IMG/VR virus record: IMGVR_UViG_3300035703_000158
Span: 1-43,692 of that record
DNA from: a virus
Length of the DNA: 43,692 bases
Direction: 5' to 3' (one strand)
In this document: one piece after another, positions 1,171 to 43,692 of the stretch
Layout: each line of letters opens with the position of its first letter
Position numbering within the stretch: position 1 is the stretch's first letter
Position numbers and translations under genes: made by a program
Notes under the pieces: generated by a model
What the model saw: only the letters and a program-made list of their open reading frames with translations
What the model was told of the DNA's origin: nothing
The model's database searches: none

Positions 1171-1214
1171 TCGGATTTTAAGTCCGCTGCGTATACCAAT
1201 TCCGCCATGCTCCC
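1171..1214 (-). other. attP-like 5' half of tRNA-Leu(UAA)
   Basis: The minus strand from 1214 reads as the acceptor strand (GGGAGCA), D-arm and complete anticodon arm of a tRNA-Leu, with loop CUUAAAA (anticodon UAA) closed by CGGA/UCCG. Similarity to a tRNA then stops: no variable arm, T-arm or 3' acceptor strand follows, so this is not a functional tRNA gene. The fragment sits about 120 bp from the gene block that ends with the integrase. The T7-like cyanophage P-SSP7 carries a 42-bp piece of its host's tRNA-Leu beside its integrase, so this is very probably the phage attachment core. It is a 5' rather than the usual 3' tRNA segment. Confidence 0.8.
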
Positions 1215-1778: not shown

Positions 1779-2774
1779 TCAGTCCTCCAGGGCGTTGACG
1801 CAGGCGGCCAGCGCATCGGTGTGCAGGTGCAGGTAGCGCTGCACTGAAGCCAGGCTGGTCCAGCCGCCGTAGGCCATCAGCTGATGCAGCGGGATGCCGC
1901 GGCTGGCCAGCTTGCTCGCGCAGGTGTGGCGTGTGGTGTGGATCGACAGGGCACGGTCATCAGCCAGGCCCAGGGCGGCCTTGCCCAGGTTGAACAGGTG
2001 CTGATAGCGGGTGTAGCGGTAGGGCCAGACGCGATGGCCCGGCACTGCAGGCAGGTGCCCCTCCAGGGCCTCGATGGCACGGCGGGTGAGCGGCACTGAG
2101 CGGGGCTTGCCGTTCTTGGTGGCCCAGAAGGTGACGCGCCCCTTCACCAGGTCCACGTCCTGGCCCTTGAGCCGTTCAGCCTCACCCCACCGGCAGGCGG
2201 TCTCGAGCAGGAACACCAGCAGATCGGCTGCTGCAGGCTCACCGATCTGGCGGAAGTAGTGGCAGAAGCGATCGCGCTCTTCATCGCTGATCACCCGGTC
2301 CTTGGTGTTGGTCAGCCGCATCTGTTGCGGCATCCGCGGCAGCTCCTGCAGGTGCCCGTGCAGGTGGGCATCGGAGAGCATGGCTCGGATGGCTGCGACC
2401 TTCTTGTTGATGGTGCTGGGCCTGTTGCCTTTGGCCTGCAGCTTCTGGCGCCAGCCATCAACCAGGGCAGCGGTCACGTCGGTGACAGGGAAGTAATCAC
2501 CGAAGAACTCAACGGCCTCGCGGCTGTAGATGGCAGCGGTGCGCTCGTAGGCAGTGCCGGCCCAGCGGATGCGCATCGACAGCGCCCGAGCCTCCTTGAG
2601 GGTGAACGGTGGCGTGGCTGATGGCTTGGCCTCGCGTTGCAGCAGCAGCTCGAGCAGCTCACGCTTGCGGGCCAGGGCCTCGGCTCTGGTTTTGCATTTG
2701 CCTGTGCGGCGGGTGCCGTTGACGGTGACATCGGCAACCCAGCCATCGGCAACCTTTCGGATGCTTCCTGCCAT
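1779..2774 (-). CDS. int: Tyrosine recombinase / phage integrase
   Basis: This 331-aa site-specific recombinase should integrate and excise the phage at the tRNA-Leu site about 560 bp downstream. The C-terminal catalytic domain shows the first Arg in CRWGEAERLKG (about residue 195), HTTRH at 279-283, Trp305 in YGGW replacing the third His, and the nucleophile Tyr314 in RYLHL. A basic N-terminal arm and a SAM-like core domain (about residues 50-150) precede it. Length is normal for the family. The start is the ATG at 2774 behind a CA-rich leader with no Shine-Dalgarno sequence. The gene shares an orientation with the MarR-like regulator upstream (35-bp gap). Confidence 0.95.
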   Translation of the reverse strand: MAGSIRKVADGWVADVTVNGTRRTGKCKTRAEALARKRELLELLLQREAKPSATPPFTLKEARALSMRIRWAGTAYERTAAIYSREAVEFFGDYFPVTDVTAALVDGWRQKLQAKGNRPSTINKKVAAIRAMLSDAHLHGHLQELPRMPQQMRLTNTKDRVISDEERDRFCHYFRQIGEPAAADLLVFLLETACRWGEAERLKGQDVDLVKGRVTFWATKNGKPRSVPLTRRAIEALEGHLPAVPGHRVWPYRYTRYQHLFNLGKAALGLADDRALSIHTTRHTCASKLASRGIPLHQLMAYGGWTSLASVQRYLHLHTDALAACVNALED

Positions 2775-2809: not shown

Positions 2810-3127
2810 TCAGATGCCCTCGAGTTGCCTGACCAGGGCCTTGCCCTTGGCCGTCAGGCGAACCATGAAGCGGCGGCCTTCATCGGGATCCCTGAAGGTC
2901 TCGAGGAGGCCATGGCCGTCGTATCCCTTGCGGTGCTTGTCGCCCAGGGCATGGACGGTGCGGGACACGGTGGAGTTGGAGAGGTTCAGGGCCTCTTCCA
3001 GCTCCTCGTAGGTGCAGCGCCCTTGGGCGGCCACCACCAGGAAGACTTGCGCGTGGTGGATCGGGAACTGCGTGGGGTTGAGAACGGAGAAAGCAGCCAG
3101 AGCCCTCTCCAGCTGACGTAGATCCAT
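2810..3127 (-). CDS. MarR-like winged-helix transcriptional regulator
   Basis: This 105-aa protein has a single winged helix-turn-helix: helices in TYEELEEALNLSNSTVSRTVHALGD (residues about 39-63; the recognition helix is the NSTVSRTVHAL part) and a wing (LLETFRDPDEGRRFMVRLTAKG) ending in LTAKGKALV, the typical MarR C-terminal helix entry. It should bind DNA as a dimer. A perfect 14-bp palindrome (GACTCCTAGGAGTC) lies 17 bp before the ATG, suggesting autoregulation. It is directly upstream of int, so it is a candidate lysogeny or excision controller. No Shine-Dalgarno site is visible. Confidence 0.8.
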   Translation of the reverse strand: MDLRQLERALAAFSVLNPTQFPIHHAQVFLVVAAQGRCTYEELEEALNLSNSTVSRTVHALGDKHRKGYDGHGLLETFRDPDEGRRFMVRLTAKGKALVRQLEGI

Positions 3128-3143
3128 GGGCCAAAACGCCTGC

Positions 3144-3157
3144 GACTCCTAGGAGTC
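3144..3157. promoter_or_regulatory. CCTAGG operator A (perfect palindrome)
   Basis: GACTCCTAGGAGTC is a perfect 14-bp palindrome 17 bp upstream of the MarR-like gene. The core ACTCCTAGGAGT recurs exactly at 7384-7395 before another winged-helix gene, with degenerate copies at 7369-7380 and in 40755-40790. This is a likely operator for one of the phage regulators. Confidence 0.65.
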
Positions 3158-3257
3158 TGGCACCGGTGGAGCCATAGGCGCTTGGCACTGCCGATGGTCT
3201 CGACATACAGCGAAAGCCCGTACCGGCACTGGCCTGCGGGGATTTCGATGGAGGCAA

Positions 3258-3668
3258 TCAGGCAGATAGACACTGGCTTTTCTCGTCGCAGGTGGATAGC
3301 TGGACACCTAGGGCTTTAGTACAATCGTACTGCCCAAAATAGTTGCGGATGAGCTGTTCTCCCGCCTCACTCAGCTGCAGCTGCAGCCCACGCCGGTGCG
3401 GGTGAGGCCTCACCTCAAGCAGGGAGTAAGGGCTCTCCACCCAGGCGCCTTGGCTGTAGCGGGCCCGGCCCCTGAGCAGGGAGATCAGGCGGCTGATGGT
3501 GGCCGGTGGCAGGTCGTTGCCATCGGCATCTCTCATCGCCCGTTGCAGGTCAGGGATGTTGTCGATCCCGGAAGCGATCAGCAGCAGGGCCTCGGCGGCA
3601 TTGATCGGCACTGCCCTGTTTTTCTGGCGCAGGGCACCAAGGAAGCCAGCCAGGTTGGTGGTGTTCAT
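3258..3668 (-). CDS. Winged-helix regulator, 136 aa
   Basis: The protein resembles the MarR-like neighbour in plan: an N-terminal helix pair (INAAEALLLIASG), a helix-turn-helix with DLPPATISRLISLLRG (about residues 50-68), a wing (SPYSLLEVRPHPHRRGLQLQLSEAG) and LSEAGEQLI leading to the last helix. It is probably a DNA-binding dimer of the MarR/PadR-like fold. The ATG at 3668 overlaps the stop of the preceding 83-aa gene (ATGA), so the two are translationally coupled. A LexA-box-like sequence lies inside its 3' end. The target is unknown; the CCTAGG and GTGGAGAACA sites are candidates. Confidence 0.7.
   Translation of the reverse strand: MNTTNLAGFLGALRQKNRAVPINAAEALLLIASGIDNIPDLQRAMRDADGNDLPPATISRLISLLRGRARYSQGAWVESPYSLLEVRPHPHRRGLQLQLSEAGEQLIRNYFGQYDCTKALGVQLSTCDEKSQCLSA
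3318..3331 (-). promoter_or_regulatory. Cyanobacterial LexA (SOS) box candidate
   Basis: The minus strand reads AGTACGATTGTACT, a full match to the cyanobacterial SOS-box consensus RGTACNNNDGTWCB described for Anabaena LexA. It sits inside the 3' end of the 3258-3668 gene and about 190 bp upstream of the MarR-like gene, so it could place that gene and int under host DNA-damage control. Single short match; no promoter mapped. Confidence 0.45.
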
Positions 3669-6611: not shown

Positions 6612-6640
6612 CAGTCCGGTGGTGGTGGTGGTTGAACCGT
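6612..6640 (-). promoter_or_regulatory. CA-rich SD-less leader of the clamp-like gene
   Basis: The minus strand reads CAACCACCACCACCACC shortly before the ATG at 6611, matching the leader class of this arm. There is no hairpin here; the GTGGAGAACA inverted repeat lies immediately upstream instead. Confidence 0.5.
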
Positions 6641-6649
6641 TCCCCACAC

Positions 6650-6688
6650 GTGGAGAACAGTTCCCACGTCCTAGCACGTGTTCTCCAC
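6650..6688. promoter_or_regulatory. Inverted GTGGAGAACA operator pair
   Basis: GTGGAGAACA (6650-6659) and its exact reverse complement TGTTCTCCAC (6679-6688) are separated by 19 bp, about two helical turns arm to arm, some 40 bp upstream of the clamp-like gene. A third copy (40734-40743) lies 14 bp before the SSB start. This is a likely operator pair controlling replication genes. Confidence 0.6.
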
Positions 6689-7368
6689 AGGTGGAGGTTT
6701 TGGGGTGGTGGCGTCAGTCGCTATCTGTAACAAAACTTCATAAGCCCCAGGGGCCAGTACTCCGCAGCCGGGCCACCTGCCCAGGCCTTGAGAACAGGAA
6801 TGAGAATCGTTCTCACGGGAAAAGGGGCCAGCCACCAGGCCCGCCAGCCCGCCGCCACCACGGCCAGCGGATCAGCAATCCGCAAGAACACCAGCCACCA
6901 CCAGGGCCAACGCCGCGCACACCTGCCCCGGCTGCAGCCACACCGCGCAGCAGGCCCCCAGAAGGGCCAGGAAGGGCGTCCCACCATCTCGCCTAGGGGA
7001 AGACACCGGCCGCCCCTCCAGCAGCCCCCAGAGGACGAGCAGGGGGCCACGGGGGGTCTTGCCCGGCGCGCGTCAGGGACACACCCCCACAAGACGCGAC
7101 CCAAAAATGGAAATTGGGCTTCGGGTCTGCAGAGCGTTTCGATGCCCCCCCTTTTCTGTGAGGTGCCCGCTTCACCGGGGCGCTGTTGGGCTGTCGCAGG
7201 TTCGGGTGGGTGTCCTGGGTTTTCGGTCTCTGACCAGTAGAGAAATCAGAGGAGCCGGTAGGAGGGGCAGTGGCGAGAGGGGTTGCTCTCCACCTGTGTT
7301 GCTCTGTGGTTAATCTGGGCTTGTCCAAACCCATTGCCCCCACTGGGTTGCGTCCAGAAGGGGCAAGT
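6689..7368. other. Divergent control region without a confident gene
   Basis: About 680 bp separates the minus-strand left arm from the plus-strand block. It contains a perfect TGAGAA-TCG-TTCTCA inverted repeat (6801-6815), a related GAGAACAG word at 6790-6797, and CTCTGA/TCAGAG arms around 7225-7251. Two minus-strand frames look weakly protein-like: 6721-6987 (88 aa, ATG, Trp-rich and hydrophobic) and 6872-7006 (44 aa, GTG, two hydrophobic segments). They overlap in different frames, so at most one is real. Other open frames here look like antisense shadows. A promoter cluster, a replication origin or both are possible. Confidence 0.4.
6801..6815. promoter_or_regulatory. TGAGAA-TCG-TTCTCA palindrome
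   Basis: This is a perfect inverted repeat with 6-bp arms in the divergent control region, sharing the GAGAAC core with the GTGGAGAACA sites 110-150 bp away. It may be an extra binding site for the same regulator or a small RNA hairpin. Confidence 0.35.
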
Positions 7369-7395
7369 CACTCCTAGGTGTCCACTCCTAGGAGT
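7369..7395. promoter_or_regulatory. CCTAGG operators B1 and B2 (tandem)
   Basis: CACTCCTAGGTG (7369-7380) and ACTCCTAGGAGT (7384-7395, perfect palindrome) have centres 14 bp apart and end about 30 bp before the ATG at 7427 of a winged-helix gene. The second is identical to the core of operator A at 3144-3157. A tandem arrangement fits cooperative repressor binding over a promoter. Confidence 0.65.
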
Positions 7396-7426
7396 CGGGT
7401 CCGTCAGCATCACCGGTACTGACTGC

Positions 7427-7801
7427 ATGAAGCCTAGAGAAGACGGTGACGAGAACTTCGTGATGGTCCACCAACGCGATCTCGATTCGACCATTGCCCT
7501 GCTGGGTGAACGGAAGCTGGAGCTGCGGGATGCCGCGGTCTTCCTGGTCCTGCTCAACTACGTCAACTGGCGCAGTGGCAGAGCCCATGTCTCAACCAAG
7601 TACATCGCTGAACGGTTGAACGTGAAGCTGCCGGTGGCGGTGAGCGCCATCACCCGCTTGCGCAAAGAGAACCTGGTGCGGCGAATCATTGATCAACGCA
7701 CCGGTGAGGCCTACTTCCTCATCAACCCTTTCCTTGCCTCGGTGGGAGGCCCTAAGCGCCGCGGCCATCTCTGGCAGCAATTCACTGATTCACTGGAATG
7801 A
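7427..7801 (+). CDS. Winged-helix DNA-binding regulator, first gene of the plus-strand block
   Basis: The product is 124 aa from the ATG at 7427. Residues about 29-95 form a winged helix: an N-terminal helix (KLELRDAAVFLVLLNYVNW), a helix-turn-helix of the 'stay in place, attack' type (STKYIAERLNVKLPVAVSAITRLRKENLVRR) and a wing (IIDQRTGEAYFLINPFLAS). This resembles phage and plasmid RepL/MarR-like proteins, so it may be a repressor or a replication initiator. Tandem CCTAGG operators precede it. The open frame extends further upstream, but the 7427 start is preferred because the extension crosses the operators; an ATG at 7463 (MVHQRD) is an alternative. Confidence 0.75.
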   Translation: MKPREDGDENFVMVHQRDLDSTIALLGERKLELRDAAVFLVLLNYVNWRSGRAHVSTKYIAERLNVKLPVAVSAITRLRKENLVRRIIDQRTGEAYFLINPFLASVGGPKRRGHLWQQFTDSLE

Positions 7802-13391: not shown

Positions 13392-13668
13392 CAGAAGGTA
13401 GCGGCAGGTTTCGATGATCTACTCCCTGCCATTGCCACCACTCGGCCCTGAGTTCGCCGAAGCCGGACTTGATGGCTGGCACCTGGTTGGCACCGGCCTG
13501 CTGCCCCATGGAAACAGCAGAGCGTAGTGGTGTTTGGCAGTGGCCACGGCCGCAAAACGCGCCCCAATGTTGTTGTTGGAGTTCCAAGGAGTGTTGTTCC
13601 AGTTGGCACAACGTGAGCCGGAATTGGATCCGTTGTTCCAGTTGCCCCCGAGGATGACGGCGCTCCCA
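13392..13668 (-). ncRNA. DGR template RNA (TR plus spacer)
   Basis: The whole Avd-RT gap is occupied by the template repeat (13548-13663) and a 156-bp spacer reaching the RT start. In characterised DGRs the transcript of exactly this span is the structured template and primer for cDNA synthesis. A frame is open through it (13419-13742) but encodes the Asn-rich template and is not expected to be a protein. Confidence 0.6.
13548..13663 (-). repeat. DGR template repeat (TR)
   Basis: This 116-bp segment aligns without gaps to VR at 14121-14236. On the coding strand it has 27 adenines, mostly in 10 AAC codons and one AAT. VR differs at 21 of the 27 adenines but at only 1 of the 89 other positions. 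The 3' end (GGGGCGCGTTTTGCGGCC) is identical in both and is the IMH-type initiation segment. TR lies between Avd and RT, the canonical location. Confidence 0.95.
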
Positions 13669-14099: not shown

Positions 14100-15194
14100 C
14101 TAAGCAAGCACCAGGTGCCCGGCCGCAAAACGCGCCCCAAAGCTGCCGGCGGAGAACCAAGGAGTGTAGCCCCAGTCGGCACAACGCGAGCCGGAAAGGG
14201 AACCGAGGTTCCAGCCGCCCCCGAGGCAGACGGCGCGAGAGAAGCCGCTGTCGTAGACGTCACCGCGACCTTCAGTGACCCCTGTGGTCCATGCGGCCGG
14301 GTTGCCGGCCAGGGCGTAGTCAGCGCCCCATTGCCACATCACGCCAGTCGCCTGCGCCAGGCCGAACTTGCTCGCTCGCTCCCAGGTCACGGTGCCTGGA
14401 TCAGAACCACGGCTGGTGGCTTCTGGGGCGCCATAGGCGGCCGCCGCAAACTCGGCATAGAACGGCAGCCGCTTGCCAAAGCTGGCCGCCATCTCAGAGG
14501 CCTCGAACCAGGTGAAGCTGCCGTAGGTGGTGCTGCCGTTGCCGCCGTATTGCGCGGGCACCAGCGGCGCGCTGGAACCGTCAGCGATGGTCAGGCCGAT
14601 CTTGCTGCTGGGCACCGCAGAGAAAGTGGTGCCGGCATAGCTGGTGGCGCCTGCCAGGTACAGGTCAATCCAGAACGCATCGTTGATGCAAGCCATCCCG
14701 CGAGGATCCGGGCAACTAGGGCGCCAGGTGAGATCCCAGAGGCTGAACTCAAGGATTTCGGCTGCTGCTGTGGGGCTGCCGTTGTTAATGGCTGTGGGGC
14801 GTCCGCTGGGGATGTAATGGAAGCCACCCACCACCGAGCCGCCGGTGGCTCCTGCCGGCGCTGTTGTGAAGCTGGCATCGGCCACCAACGCCCCCGTGGT
14901 GGGGTGCTGCCAAATGGCGTAGTCGGTGTTGTTGCTGAAGCTGCCGGGCATCGTCACGGCAGTGGCGGCGAGATACCACATCCCGCCAAGCACAGAGTTG
15001 GCAGCAATGCTCAGGGCTGTGGCTGCTGTTTTCTGGAATAGCGAGCCGCGGTGACCTGACGGACGGAAGTTCTGAAACGCAGTCGAGCCTGCGATCTGGA
15101 CGGGAACAGGCCCGCCCCCGGGGCCAATCACGGTCGTGTTCCCGTAGAGCGGGTAAACAGTCATGGAAGTACGGATAAGGTCCGGTGTTTCCAT
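14100..15194 (-). CDS. DGR variable protein, C-type-lectin/FGE-like, receptor-binding tip candidate
   Basis: The 364-aa protein ends in a formylglycine-enzyme/C-type-lectin-like domain (about residues 150-364: FTWFEASEMAASFGKRLPFYAEF, GVMWQWGADYALAG, GDVYDSGFSRAVCLGGGW, GSRCADWG, GARFAAG), the fold used by Mtd and other DGR targets. Its last part (residues about 320-358) is VR, with the hypervariable residues on the GGW...GARFA ligand surface. The N-terminal half is Gly/Ala/Thr-rich beta structure that may attach to the fibre. It follows the tail-fibre gene by 52 bp. A CTGCA-family motif ends one base before the ATG at 15194; an internal ATG 10 codons on is possible. Role inferred: adhesion to the host surface. 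Confidence 0.9.
   Translation of the reverse strand: METPDLIRTSMTVYPLYGNTTVIGPGGGPVPVQIAGSTAFQNFRPSGHRGSLFQKTAATALSIAANSVLGGMWYLAATAVTMPGSFSNNTDYAIWQHPTTGALVADASFTTAPAGATGGSVVGGFHYIPSGRPTAINNGSPTAAAEILEFSLWDLTWRPSCPDPRGMACINDAFWIDLYLAGATSYAGTTFSAVPSSKIGLTIADGSSAPLVPAQYGGNGSTTYGSFTWFEASEMAASFGKRLPFYAEFAAAAYGAPEATSRGSDPGTVTWERASKFGLAQATGVMWQWGADYALAGNPAAWTTGVTEGRGDVYDSGFSRAVCLGGGWNLGSLSGSRCADWGYTPWFSAGSFGARFAAGHLVLA
14121..14236 (-). repeat. DGR variable repeat (VR)
   Basis: VR is 116 bp, ungapped against TR at 13548-13663, with 22 differences. Twenty-one are at template adenines (for example AAC to GGC, CTC, TAC, TTC, GCC, AGC); the one other change lies beside the 5' edge. Non-adenine template positions are otherwise unchanged. 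Confidence 0.95.
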
Positions 15195-16138: not shown

Positions 16139-16152
16139 CTCCACCTGTGCAG
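16139..16152 (-). promoter_or_regulatory. CTGCA-family motif before the tail fibre
   Basis: CTGCACAGGTGGAG on the minus strand, 8 bp upstream of the GTG at 16130. It shares CTGCACAGGTGG with the motif at 1093-1106 in front of RNAP. Confidence 0.5.
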
Positions 16153-31912: not shown

Positions 31913-31985
31913 TGGCCTTTAGGGATAGCGAGCTTCTGTCCGTTGTTTGGCTGAGTGGGGTGTCTCCCTAGGAAGGCCCAATCAG

Positions 31986-31999
31986 TTGCACGGGTGCAG
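31986..31999 (-). promoter_or_regulatory. CTGCA-family motif before the capsid gene
   Basis: CTGCACCCGTGCAA lies in the scaffold-capsid gap, 73 bp before the capsid ATG. The core GCACCCGT is also present in the promoter reported for the Syn5 cyanophage RNA polymerase (ATTGGGCACCCGTAA), which supports a promoter role. Confidence 0.6.
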
Positions 32000-39670: not shown

Positions 39671-40031
39671 TCCAAATGACCTTGAGGTGAATCGACTGGT
39701 TGTTCTTGGGTTGCTGCTGCCACTGCGCTTCGATTCGCTGCAGCACCGTCACTCGGTCATCGGCCCAGACAATCCCGTTGCCGGCGTCCATCACGGCGCC
39801 AGCGAGGTTGTCCAGATCAGATGTCCCAGGCCCGCAGAACGTGAGATGCAGCGCCACTACCTGACCTTTCTCAAGCGGTGGGACAGTCCACCACTCGCTG
39901 AGGATTGCCCGAACGCTGTCGGCCCAGGTGCGGTACTTGGTGTCCTTGTAGGCAGAGCCCCGCCCAAAGCGAGGCCGTGCCTTGGGCTGCAGCGGCACCG
40001 GCAATACGAAGTCGGCGGTGCGCAACGCCAT
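39642..40031 (-). CDS. RusA-like Holliday-junction resolvase
   Basis: The 129-aa protein shows the RusA family pattern: N-terminal FVLPVPLQPKARPRFG, YKDTKYRTWADSVRAIL, and the acidic core SDLDNLAGAVMDAGNGIVWADDRVTVLQRIEAQW (DxDN and DD residues bind metal). It would resolve branched replication intermediates before packaging, the task done by endonuclease I (gp3) in T7. The start shares bases with the SSB stop. Confidence 0.88.
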   Translation of the reverse strand: MALRTADFVLPVPLQPKARPRFGRGSAYKDTKYRTWADSVRAILSEWWTVPPLEKGQVVALHLTFCGPGTSDLDNLAGAVMDAGNGIVWADDRVTVLQRIEAQWQQQPKNNQSIHLKVIWNDELHPAAA

Positions 40032-40720
40032 CAGAAGGGGATCTCCTCGGCGTCGGCTTTGGCCAGTGCAGCCGGGGCATCAGCCTTTACCTGGGCGGCG
40101 CGGGCCCGGATCTGCTCGGCCATGCTCATCGGCTGGGCTGGCTCTTCTGCAGCGAACGGTGTCTGGGCAGCAGGGGTCTCGGCCACGTAGCCGTCTTCCT
40201 CGCCGAAGGCAGACGCTGCATCAACGCGCTCGTAAGGCACCAGGTCGATCACCTGCAGCGACTCGAGCGTGAGGCTGATGCCCTTGGCACCGCTGCGCTT
40301 CTCGGTCCAGCCCCAGGCCGAGAACGCCACCTTCACCTTGGAGCCGTTGCCGATCAGGCAGTCCTGGGGCCAGATGTTCTTCTTGCTATCGACGATCACC
40401 GGCGGGGACATCAGGTTCCCCTTGGCACTCATCTCGGTGCGCTTGAACCGGAAGCGGATCTTGCCGGTGGGGTTCTTGTCCTTGTCCATCTGATCGGCAA
40501 ATGGCCAGGCGTTCTTGGCCTGCTTGGCGCCGGGGCCATTCACCTCAACAAACAGAAGCTCGATTTTTTCGATGAAAGCAATGGTCTCGGGGTCGGCCGG
40601 GTCCAGGGCCAGCTCGATCGACCAAGCGCGAGGGTCGCCTTCTTCGTAGCCATCAGCGGGCTCGAGAACCTTGGCCCACCAGGCCTCGCCAAGCGGGGAA
40701 ACATGGAGCTGTCGCGGCAT
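40031..40720 (-). CDS. Single-stranded DNA-binding protein (T7 gp2.5-like)
   Basis: The 229-aa product contains an OB-fold (WSIELALDPADPETIAFIEKI, GKIRFRFKRTEMSAKG, NIWPQDCLIGNGSKVKVAFSAWGWTEKRSGAKGISLTLESLQVI) and an acidic tail ending DAEEIPF, like the C-terminal tips of SSBs that recruit replication partners. It covers ssDNA during replication. The promoter region has a GTGGAGAACA site 14 bp before the ATG and two CCTAGG-type sites, so it is the best-supported target of the phage regulators. Confidence 0.88.
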   Translation of the reverse strand: MPRQLHVSPLGEAWWAKVLEPADGYEEGDPRAWSIELALDPADPETIAFIEKIELLFVEVNGPGAKQAKNAWPFADQMDKDKNPTGKIRFRFKRTEMSAKGNLMSPPVIVDSKKNIWPQDCLIGNGSKVKVAFSAWGWTEKRSGAKGISLTLESLQVIDLVPYERVDAASAFGEEDGYVAETPAAQTPFAAEEPAQPMSMAEQIRARAAQVKADAPAALAKADAEEIPF

Positions 40721-40733
40721 TTGTGCGCCACAT

Positions 40734-40743
40734 GTGGAGAACA
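40734..40743. promoter_or_regulatory. GTGGAGAACA operator before SSB
   Basis: An exact 10-bp copy of the arms found inverted at 6650-6688, 14 bp upstream of the SSB start and in the same plus-strand orientation as the 6650 arm. Links control of SSB with the clamp-like gene. Confidence 0.55.
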
Positions 40744-40754
40744 GCGCGACCTTA

Positions 40755-40790
40755 GGTACCTAGGAGTGCTACGGCAAGACACCTAGGAGA
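40755..40790. promoter_or_regulatory. CCTAGG operators C1 and C2 between RNAP and SSB
   Basis: Two degenerate members of the CCTAGG family, GTACCTAGGAGTG (centre 40761/40762) and ACACCTAGGAGAG (centre 40784/40785), are spaced 23 bp apart in the 73-bp gap between the RNAP stop and SSB start. Confidence 0.55.
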
Positions 40791-40793
40791 GTC

Positions 40794-43205
40794 TCACGAG
40801 AAGCAGTGTGGGTTCTGGCCGATCTCTCCATGGCACAGATCTCCCACCTGCGGTGCGGGCGGAAGGTTCTTAAGCCCTGCAGCATCTGCGATCTGGGCCG
40901 CCATCTCCGCTAACCAGTCAGGCGCGTAAAGCCCCCTGAGCTCGTCATGCAGGGTGTGATGCAGCCAGCCTGCACGGGATGGAATTGTCGCAAAGCAGTC
41001 GTGATTGGTTAGGAGCTGCGCACCTTGCTCTCCACTCTTCTCAATGACCAGCTGGCACAGGGCCGCATCAAACGAGTGGACCGTGTTGGCGGTCACGGCC
41101 CGGTTGGTGCTGCGTGCAGACAGCTCTCCTTCTTTGGCCTCGTCAGACCACGCCTGCCACCGCCGCCGGCCATGGGCCAGGGTCGTGACGGTGGTGCGTG
41201 GGTCCAGGGCATCGCCCAGTCGGATCGGCAGGCCCATTGGGCTGGTCCACTGCACCGCCTTGCCCTCGGCCAGCACTGTCCTGGTCACGGTGCGCAGCCA
41301 GGTCTGCAGATCGAGGCAGCTCTTGAGCTCAGCCCCCAGCAGCACGCCCAGCTTGCGGGCCAGGTATCGGGCCGGGGCCAGGTAGGCGTACTCCCACTGG
41401 TGCAGCTTGAGCCCGGCCTGCCGTTCCTCCAGCGCTGCCACCAGCCCCTCGACCACACCCAGGAACTGGGCGCCATAGATGGTCGTCATCACTGGGCCTT
41501 TGCACAGCGAGCGATCGACGCCGAACTCAAGCCACAGCTGGGCCATGCGCTGCTCGCGCTCGGTGCCGTTGCTCAGGTCCAGCCTCAGCAGTCGCTGCAG
41601 TTCGCCTGCGATGTGGCTGTAGAGATCGCGGTGGCTTTTGCCGGCGATGTTGGTGAGCTTGGCCAGCCTGCGATCACGCACCAGGGCAGATGCGATGCCG
41701 ATGCCGCTGCAGGTTTGATCGAACCGCACCGGTGTGGTGCAGCTGCTGCTCGGGTCAGCCACCTGCTGCGCAATGGCACGGCACAGCTGCAGGTACTGCC
41801 ATGGATCCTTGGCGTCACGCCACAGCTCAAGCCGATCCAGCGGCGCCTCGGCTGCACCGCACATCTCCATCAGGTGATTGCGGCCCCACTCCAGTCGGGC
41901 TTGCCAGTTGCCCCGGATCCCCCAGTGGCTGGCTGCACCTTTGAGCAGCCACTCAAACGCCTCAACCGAGCAGGTCTCGCCGTGGCTGAAGTGAACGGCA
42001 GCCTTCTCCCAGTCCGGGCCCTGGTGGGTGGCGTAGCGGTTGGAGGTGTAGAGCCGGCCCCGGAAGTCACTGCAGTAGGCGAACCAGATCGGCATCCCGG
42101 CCACCTCCTCGCACTGCCGGATGGTCTGCTCAATCCGGTTGCGTTCTGCTGCGCCCTCGCAGCGGTCGCGCTGCGCCTTCAGGCGTTGTCGCTGGTAGTC
42201 CTTAAAGGCCTCAGACCCGAGCAGCTCCTGCGGCCGCGGCGGATCCTCGAGCGGGTCGCGGGTGACAGGGAACAAGCCGCGGATGTTGTGGTCCCAGGCG
42301 CAGCGCTGCAGCTCGACCATCCCTGGGTCAATGCGCAGCTCTTGCTGTTGCAGCTGGTTCACGGCCCTGAGCACTGGGGCCAGCGCCGTTGGCGTCAGGT
42401 GGCTGAGGTCCAGCCCGGCACGGCTGCGCACCAGCGGCTGCTTGTTGTCCAGGTGCCCACCGCCGTGCATCCCCTCCCACGGCCGGGGCGGCACCAGCAT
42501 TGGCAGCCGGCGTGCCTGAAAAGGCCGCGGCGGGTTGGCTTTGATCACAGCCTCCGCTGTTGCAGTGGGCCGCACGGTGCAGCGCAACCGGCCATTGCGG
42601 CTTGTGGTGCCCACCTCCACTAGGTCGGTGTTGGCAAGGATCACCTGCAGCAGCAGGTTGCCCACCTCCACCTTCTCTGTGTGTGTCCAGCCGCTGCAGT
42701 CCAGGCGCAGCTGCTCGAGCACCTTGGTGTCGCTGAGCGCCCTTGCCCCTTTGCGCTTGCGGATCAGCCGCATCAGGTCGGGGCTGGCCTGCTCAATCCG
42801 CCCGGCCTTGAGCTCATCCTGCAGGGCCTTGCCGATGGCACCGGCCAGGCGTCGCTGCTCAGGGCGCTGGCTGATCTGGTCGATCACCACACCCAGGGCG
42901 ATGGCAGCAATGGACCTTGGGCCTCGGTTGGTGACGTGCAGCAGCAGAGGCCAGGCGGCGAAGTGCGGGCCGGGCTTGCTGGGGTTGGCCAGCAGCTCTT
43001 CAAGCAGCAGGCCCAGGGCCACCGTCACCTGCTCGGCGCACTGGGTGAAGAGGGCCCGGCCGTACTCAGTGACGCTCTCTTTGCCCTGCGCTTTGAGCTT
43101 GGCTCGGGCATTGATCGCATCCCATTTCGCCCGCTCTCTTTCCCTCTCCTCCCTCTGCTTCTGCAGTTTGTCCACAGGGGTGGACGCAGGATTTCTGGGT
43201 TTCAA
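40794..43205 (-). CDS. Phage single-subunit RNA polymerase (T7-like), complete
   Basis: The 803-aa polymerase is complete. Catalytic motifs: A, RFDQTCSGIGIASALVRD (T7 Asp537 equivalent, about residue 495); B, DRSLCKGPVMTTIYGAQ (Lys631 and Tyr639 equivalents, about 566-574); C, NHDCFATIP (Asp812 equivalent, about 734). T7 RNAP has 883 residues; the N-terminal promoter-binding domain is shorter here. It should read promoters that host polymerase ignores, and the CTGCA-family motifs are the obvious candidates. The start is a TTG at 43205; no ATG in frame lies nearby. Its 5' part is duplicated at 1-1058. Confidence 0.95.
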   Translation of the reverse strand: MKPRNPASTPVDKLQKQREERERERAKWDAINARAKLKAQGKESVTEYGRALFTQCAEQVTVALGLLLEELLANPSKPGPHFAAWPLLLHVTNRGPRSIAAIALGVVIDQISQRPEQRRLAGAIGKALQDELKAGRIEQASPDLMRLIRKRKGARALSDTKVLEQLRLDCSGWTHTEKVEVGNLLLQVILANTDLVEVGTTSRNGRLRCTVRPTATAEAVIKANPPRPFQARRLPMLVPPRPWEGMHGGGHLDNKQPLVRSRAGLDLSHLTPTALAPVLRAVNQLQQQELRIDPGMVELQRCAWDHNIRGLFPVTRDPLEDPPRPQELLGSEAFKDYQRQRLKAQRDRCEGAAERNRIEQTIRQCEEVAGMPIWFAYCSDFRGRLYTSNRYATHQGPDWEKAAVHFSHGETCSVEAFEWLLKGAASHWGIRGNWQARLEWGRNHLMEMCGAAEAPLDRLELWRDAKDPWQYLQLCRAIAQQVADPSSSCTTPVRFDQTCSGIGIASALVRDRRLAKLTNIAGKSHRDLYSHIAGELQRLLRLDLSNGTEREQRMAQLWLEFGVDRSLCKGPVMTTIYGAQFLGVVEGLVAALEERQAGLKLHQWEYAYLAPARYLARKLGVLLGAELKSCLDLQTWLRTVTRTVLAEGKAVQWTSPMGLPIRLGDALDPRTTVTTLAHGRRRWQAWSDEAKEGELSARSTNRAVTANTVHSFDAALCQLVIEKSGEQGAQLLTNHDCFATIPSRAGWLHHTLHDELRGLYAPDWLAEMAAQIADAAGLKNLPPAPQVGDLCHGEIGQNPHCFS

Positions 43206-43239
43206 TTCGCATTTTCGGGCGCTTTCAGCAGTAATTCCA

Positions 43240-43253
43240 CCCCACCTGTGCAG
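43240..43253 (-). promoter_or_regulatory. CTGCA-type motif upstream of RNAP (copy 2)
   Basis: Identical to 1093-1106 (minus strand CTGCACAGGTGGGG), 35 bp before the RNAP TTG start. Confidence 0.45.
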
Positions 43254-43294
43254 AGATGGCTAACTCGTTACTGCAGCCAATGAATACGAGTGCT

Positions 43295-43308
43295 CTGCAG
43301 GGGTGGAA
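43295..43308 (-). promoter_or_regulatory. Inverted partner motif upstream of RNAP (copy 2)
   Basis: Identical to 1148-1161 (minus strand TTCCACCCCTGCAG), placed between RNAP and the tRNA-Leu fragment. Confidence 0.4.
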
Positions 43309-43317
43309 TGACATTTT

Positions 43318-43361
43318 TCGGATTTTAAGTCCGCTGCGTATGCCAATTCCGCCATGCTCCC
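43318..43361 (-). other. attP-like 5' half of tRNA-Leu(UAA), copy 2
   Basis: Same tRNA-Leu 5' half as at 1171-1214 with one substitution (A1195 versus G43342), which changes the D-loop GGUAUA to GGCAUA. The anticodon arm is unchanged. The two units may therefore match slightly different host alleles. Confidence 0.8.
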
Positions 43362-43482
43362 GCCTGTGACCGCAAGGGATCTCAGGGATTCAGCCGTCTG
43401 CCGAGACTGCCGAACCTAAGCAGTCTGCCGCAGCGAGCAGGCAGAGAAACCGATCCGGTGGACGCATCCACAACAACAGGCG

Positions 43483-43692
43483 TCACTCACCGAAGACGGG
43501 CAGCGGGGCAGGGCCAGCCGGTTCAGCCCGCACACCGCCGGGTGAGAAGGGGTCCATGCGCAGGCGGGTGCGGTAGTTCCCGTTGAAGTCCGGGATGGTG
43601 CAGCCAGTGAAGGGGGCGTTCTGCGGCGTGATCTCGACGCCGTAGTTCCAGCCGCAGGCCGGGCCATAGAGCTGGGCGATCAGGGTCAGCGC
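43483..43692 (-). CDS. Second copy of the 76-aa att-side protein (5' cut by window edge)
   Basis: The C-terminal 69 residues of a homologue of the 1336-1566 product, ending VFGE instead of VFSQ. The frame is open to the window edge, and replacements are few (Glu/Gln, Leu/Pro, Val/Ile), which supports the reality of both copies. Confidence 0.6.
   Translation of the reverse strand, partial: ALTLIAQLYGPACGWNYGVEITPQNAPFTGCTIPDFNGNYRTRLRMDPFSPGGVRAEPAGPAPLPVFGE

Follow-up and report, generated by a model that had tools for sequence, protein, structure and literature searches.

CCTAGG-centred palindromes are probable operators of a MarR-type regulator in a T7-like cyanopodovirus

The genome of an uncultured T7-like cyanopodovirus carries five CCTAGG-centred palindromes at three places: before the gene of a MarR-type regulator (marR), before a RepL-like gene, and between the genes of the phage RNA polymerase (RNAP) and the single-strand DNA-binding protein (SSB). 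The sites are conserved among relatives, one pair of them is framed by a host-type promoter, and where their sequences change, they change in a coordinated manner. Judged from sequence, the palindromes are best explained as candidate operators of the MarR encoded at 2810-3127. We consider it likely that they are operators, with the consensus GACWCCTAGGWGTC, of a dimer of this MarR, and that they form a circuit with three targets. Both the identity of the binder and the repressive effect of binding are inferred.

The window analyzed here is the whole 43,692-base sequence of IMG/VR virus IMGVR_UViG_3300035703_000158. Because the contig ends repeat, the genome is approximately 42.1 kb long. The overlapping ends, positions 1-1545 and 42148-43692, are only about 95% identical, as if two strains or variants had been joined in the assembly. 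This T7-like cyanopodovirus has the order MarR-Int-attP-RNAP-SSB, preceded on the minus strand by a paralogue of MarR. It encodes the single-subunit RNAP and T7-type large terminase characteristic of Autographiviridae (Pfam), as well as a gp2.5-like SSB, an ArdC-like antirestriction protein, and a tyrosine integrase (Pfam and PHROG). The marR gene is positioned beside the integrase gene and upstream of the T7-type RNAP gene, as in the MarR-int module of temperate T7-like phages. Among cultured phages, Synechococcus phage S-SRP02 (MW822601) is the nearest, with an RNAP that is 67% identical. Its marine relatives are MedDCM phages S38-C3, S31-C1, and S37-C6, followed by P-SSP7 and HTVC019P. The genes and attachment site relevant here are:

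1172-1214, minus strand: putative attP, the 5' half of a tRNA-Leu gene, assigned from sequence and at the same place as in P-SSP7
1779-2774, minus strand: tyrosine integrase, directly after marR (Pfam/PHROG)
2810-3127, minus strand: MarR-type regulator, the best candidate binder (Pfam HTH_27/MarR, PHROG 9665)
2986-3273, minus strand: small conserved unannotated ORF of about 95 amino acids, carrying a candidate operator in its codons
3258-3668, minus strand: second winged-helix protein, a distant MarR paralogue, upstream of marR
7427-7801, plus strand: RepL-like winged-helix protein, putative regulated gene (Pfam RepL)
40031-40720, minus strand: gp2.5-like SSB, leading the putatively controlled replication segment (PHROG 112)
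40794-43205, minus strand: T7-type single-subunit RNAP (Pfam RNA_pol, RPOL_N)

A second attP copy near 43319-43361 falls within the terminal overlap. The tRNA-Leu 5' half is present by sequence between int and RNAP in the window and in many relatives. The lineage of L008 (G001:C1) and L084 (1-125) carries at the att position a tRNA-Thr gene and the 3' half of tRNA-Tyr instead of tRNA-Leu. A 117-nt direct repeat (13547-13663 and 14120-14236, 81% identity, 573 bp apart) is located in minus-strand genes after the terminase block.

The original prediction placed perfect copies of ACTCCTAGGAGT at 3145-3156 and 7384-7395, and both are present. The degenerate copy assigned to 7369-7380 exists as ACTCCTAGGTGT, with one mismatch, but its true position is 7370-7381. 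Both copies at the RNAP/SSB junction were found; the first shifts to 40756-40767 (GTACCTAGGAGT, three mismatches), and the second is ACACCTAGGAGA at 40779-40790 (two mismatches). The observation itself is confirmed, with small coordinate shifts. With at most one mismatch, the 12-mer occurs at three places only in the window, and the reversed control pattern at none. Counting at up to three mismatches is uninformative, as the counts alone barely exceed chance (15 seen with three mismatches, 9.5 expected). The hexamer CCTAGG occurs nine times in the window against 5.8 expected. An independent 14-bp matrix, trained on 48 sites from 12 other phages with the window excluded, ranks exactly the five predicted sites first to fifth in the window, at 22.3, 21.4, 20.9, 17.2, and 15.5 bits. 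Matches of at least 14 bits number five, compared to 0.07 expected in 43.7 kb. In S-SRP02 the matrix identifies four sites of 20-22 bits, of which one precedes marR, one follows RNAP, and two precede the RepL-like gene. The candidate operators and the associated promoter of the window are:

3144-3157: O_M, GACTCCTAGGAGTC, perfect 14-bp palindrome with the best matrix score, in conserved codons
7369-7382: O_R1, CACTCCTAGGTGTC, in the leader of the RepL-like gene, third matrix score, kept in relatives
7383-7396: O_R2, CACTCCTAGGAGTC, 14 bp after O_R1, second matrix score, kept in relatives
40749-40777, minus strand: putative host-type ssb promoter, TTGCCG (40777-40772), 17-bp spacer, TAAGGT (40754-40749)
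40755-40768: O_S2, in the 17-bp spacer of the ssb promoter, 15.5 bits, same position in relatives
40778-40791: O_S1, abutting the -35 element at the RNAP stop codon, 17.2 bits

The sites are confined to the three places, with none before late genes. CCTAGG is absent from positions 1-1778 and 40794-43692 of the window, and there is no operator between int and RNAP.

The comparison covered about 80 loci, most of them on viral contigs, which represent 41 distinct marR loci. Most of the latter, S-SRP02 included, have CTAG-centred dyads at the three places, and the conservation reaches beyond CCTAGG. The marR-proximal CTAG is mostly at -28. The dyads of the RNAP/SSB gap are mostly at -69 and -46; the resulting spacing of 23 bp is that of O_S1 and O_S2. 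The dyads before the RepL-like gene are 13-14 bp apart in near relatives. The motif is retained in relatives with MarR proteins 54-96% identical, rather than being lost while the regulators are kept. In L065 and L072-L076 the marR-proximal CCTAGG is shifted from -28 to -11, which indicates turnover of the site and not mere common descent.

O_M precedes the marR start codon by 18 bp. All sites had been predicted to occupy promoter-type gaps; however, this one is inside the conserved ORF 2986-3273 on the minus strand. The ORF overlaps the marR start by 141 nt in near relatives, and is without annotation in S-SRP02. In 19 related sequences, the codons of the ORF that form the operator are nearly fixed (ACT 18/19, CCT 19/19, AGG 19/19, AGT 14/19). 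Elsewhere in the ORF, the amino acids are conserved, and the codons change synonymously. Proline is encoded by CCT in 19/19 sequences at the operator, whereas another proline is encoded by CCC in nine, CCT in seven, CCA in two, and CCG in one. Since the operator codons are fixed while their neighbors vary synonymously, the constraint acts on DNA. Neither the operator at marR nor those at the RepL-like gene could be linked to an adjacent promoter.

The RNAP/SSB sites are located in a promoter-type gap, as predicted, but the gap lies within one transcription unit, downstream of RNAP, and is not divergent. The arrangement TTGnnn-N17-TAnnnT around the CTAG site is present in 9 of 24 distinct SSB leaders by a strict rule and in 17 of 24 by relaxed rules. 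The strict rule is satisfied in 0.47% of shuffles that keep the site. A further relative, L084, has TTGCCA-N17-TACTGT, and in S-SRP02 the counterpart of TAAGGT is TACCTT. A scan with the E. coli-type consensus does not flag the ssb promoter, which scores poorly against it, and the promoter assignment is therefore based on conservation. Because the spacer has the optimal length of 17 bp, a dimer bound to it should exclude the sigma factor. From this geometry we infer that bound MarR represses the ssb promoter.

Among other dyads, a second type, roughly CTSCACNNGTGSAG, is mostly intergenic, with some copies preceding late genes, and often follows a CATGAGTTG-like sequence. It is found in the window at 1090-1105, 6640-6700, 7284-7300, 16139-16150, 31985-31998, 40726-40740, and 43240-43252, and in S-SRP02 (L037) at 26, 6038, 18959, 27246, and 28441. 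At SSB its form varies by lineage (CCACATGTGG, TGCACATGTGCA, TGCAGATCTGCA, TGCATNNATGCA). This dyad is a candidate promoter of the phage RNAP or a candidate operator of another regulator. HTVC019P (L042) has a strong 18-bp palindrome, AGTGCATTCGAATGTACT, at 3352-3369, shortly upstream of the pelagiphage marR; it does not recur within the first 12 kb and is possibly an operator of the MarR of that phage.

The MarR encoded at 2810-3127 matches HTH_27 above the Pfam cutoff and MarR_2 below it. Its predicted structure (pLDDT 91) has E. coli MarR and relatives as the top PDB matches (E 9e-6). Residues S55-R56 of the recognition helix are invariant in 26 sequences. In the homolog pMarR, the substitution R67A of the conserved recognition-helix arginine abolishes DNA binding (PMC9692554). 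Lineages with ACTCCTAGGAG-type marR sites keep a recognition helix that reads SRTV[HQNM]AL or nearly so. In L020 (AGTCCTAGGACT/TGTCCTAGGACT) and L081 (AGTCCTAGGACA/GGTCCTAGGACT), the sites have changed together at marR and SSB, and the MarR helix of both is SRIAQSL, not SRTVHAL. L061 has also changed its sites together, to CACTAG.../...CTAGTG at both marR and SSB. That its helix, SRTVNAL, differs little counts against MarR as the binder, as does the absence of CCTAGG sites before the RepL-like gene in L020 and L081. The RepL-like protein (7427-7801) is ruled out in practice as the binder: it falls to 42-58% identity in L024, L026, L036, L050, and L051, yet the sites are unchanged, whereas it is 81% identical in L020, where the sites changed. 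Since the motif is kept while the RepL-like protein diverges, it follows MarR.

The prediction of an operator set of a phage repressor is strongly supported in its first part, by the conservation at three places, the coordinated changes, and the promoter geometry; the repression itself is conjectural. We propose that MarR bound to O_S2 in the spacer and to O_S1 at the -35 element would keep the host RNA polymerase off the SSB and replication genes. Binding to O_M would provide negative autoregulation of marR-int. The O_R1/O_R2 pair in the RepL leader, downstream of any likely start, may damp the rightward RepL-terminase unit. The phage replication functions would be held down for as long as MarR is abundant.

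The purpose of such a circuit can be read in two ways. In the first, with a probability somewhat below even, the circuit times lytic growth, and MarR made early shuts host-polymerase promoters once the phage RNAP takes over. This agrees with the presence of an operator in a host-type promoter that directly follows the RNAP gene and with the essentially lytic behavior of the studied relatives (PMC8776855). The linkage of the integrase to marR and the presence of attP, however, speak for a possible role related to integration. In the second reading, that of the original prediction, MarR silences a prophage in a true lysis-lysogeny switch by blocking the SSB, marR-int, and RepL units. This is plausible, though on balance doubtful. 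The integrase directly after marR and the tRNA-Leu attP between int and RNAP suggest it, and MarR-based control of lysogeny has been proposed for phages LUZ100 and Pasto in the LUZ100 paper (PMC10134795). On the other hand, no operator separates int from RNAP, and marine T7-like cyanophages integrate at tRNA-Leu without a repressor homolog having been found and without stable lysogeny (PMC8776855). Furthermore, a scan of genome contigs from 84,980 species genomes for prophages found no relatives of the RNAP and no prophage of the clade. An alignment search of the contigs with MarR gave one match, a 5-kb contig of a Cyanobium metagenome-assembled genome. The near-identical phage L008 repeats the att-site stretch at its two contig ends and is therefore a circular phage, so the Cyanobium contig is not evidence of a lysogen. 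Service to lysogeny rather than to lytic timing is thus a possibility only.

The paralogue encoded at 3258-3668 might bind the palindromes either by itself or as a competitor of MarR, and the operators would then serve two winged-helix proteins in the manner of CI and Cro. We regard this as unlikely. The gene is present in every CCTAGG phage checked except S31-C1, which has a weak match, and immediately precedes marR in almost all motif-bearing phages; S37-C6 seems to be without both the paralogue and the CTAG sites. Its predicted helix, however, varies strongly in L060, L067, L068, L070, and L062-L075, which keep CCTAGG and the MarR helix, and it is therefore the weaker candidate binder. In addition, the regulator-adjacent site precedes marR and not the gene of the paralogue. 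We speculate, with little confidence, that MarR and the paralogue compete for or divide shared operators and that, together with the small protein encoded across the marR start, they form a decision circuit resembling CI/Cro that consists of MarR components and acts on the SSB promoter downstream of the phage RNAP in freshwater picocyanobacterial T7-like phages.

It is highly improbable that the palindromes function at the RNA level, as hairpins or attenuators, or that they are phage RNAP promoters or CCTAGG restriction sites. The two RepL-leader sites can pair as RNA (z -3.4), but folding does not stand out at the remaining two places (z -1.3 and -0.8), there is no T tract or terminator, covariation is lacking in the RepL leader, and the sites are restricted to three places, away from late genes, with conservation beyond CCTAGG. 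The RepL leader (7330-7427) also contains a conserved stem TTGCCCC..GGGGCAA and, just before the ATG, an invariant GTCAG...CTGAC with a loop of 7 to 12 nt, which suggests an RNA hairpin near the start codon. The stems of the leader are conserved with essentially no covariation.

The preferred reading, that of MarR operators, can be compared with known systems. P-SSP7 pMarR (gp0.7, PSSP7_011) is a DNA-binding dimer that needs a conserved arginine (PMC9692554). It is homologous to the MarR described here (about 37% identical), is encoded directly before int and RNAP, and has the conserved Ser-Arg of the recognition helix. However, pMarR activates the host rne promoter from downstream of the start site, and its binding is ladder-like and loosely specific (PMC9692554); both the activation and the low specificity count against our explanation. 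Furthermore, P-SSP7 is without the RNAP/SSB gap and has no CTAG site at marR or SSB. S-SRP02 agrees with the window in gene order and carries the same operators at each of the three places; the paper describing it (PMC8790148) names the MarR gene, and the terms promoter and palindrome are absent from its text.

MarR control next to int has already been proposed in temperate T7-like phages, for LUZ100 (PMC10134795) and for Pasto (Boeckman et al. 2022, as cited there). As described in the LUZ100 paper, these phages have the order MarR-int-RNAP, and MarR is proposed to repress phage transcription via specific sites that flank a promoter upstream of RNAP. In contrast, the phage studied here has no sites upstream of RNAP; its sites follow RNAP and precede marR and the RepL-like gene. 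Strict palindromes were not found near marR, RNAP, and SSB of Pasto.

The predicted difference from the lambda CI/Cro type holds: the regulators are MarR-like, and the SSB, marR, and RepL sites are separate, without a divergent PRM/PR pair. The likeness to lambda consists of repeated operators controlling early genes and the gene of the regulator. Here, however, a MarR-type winged helix takes the place of a CI-type repressor, and the SSB promoter is part of a T7-like genome containing its own RNAP. A literature search on CCTAGG palindromes in phages returned nothing relevant. What appears to be new is the sequence of the operator, its occurrence downstream of RNAP, within the spacer of a promoter, and in protein-coding codons, and the joint changes across lineages, with Boeckman et al. 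2022 compared as represented in the LUZ100 paper.

The long-debated question of whether T7-like cyanophages have a real circuit for the control of lysogeny becomes directly testable. A whole freshwater clade, including the cultured S-SRP02, now has a candidate repressor, defined operators, and a defined target promoter. The coordinated operator changes provide natural specificity variants of a MarR protein.
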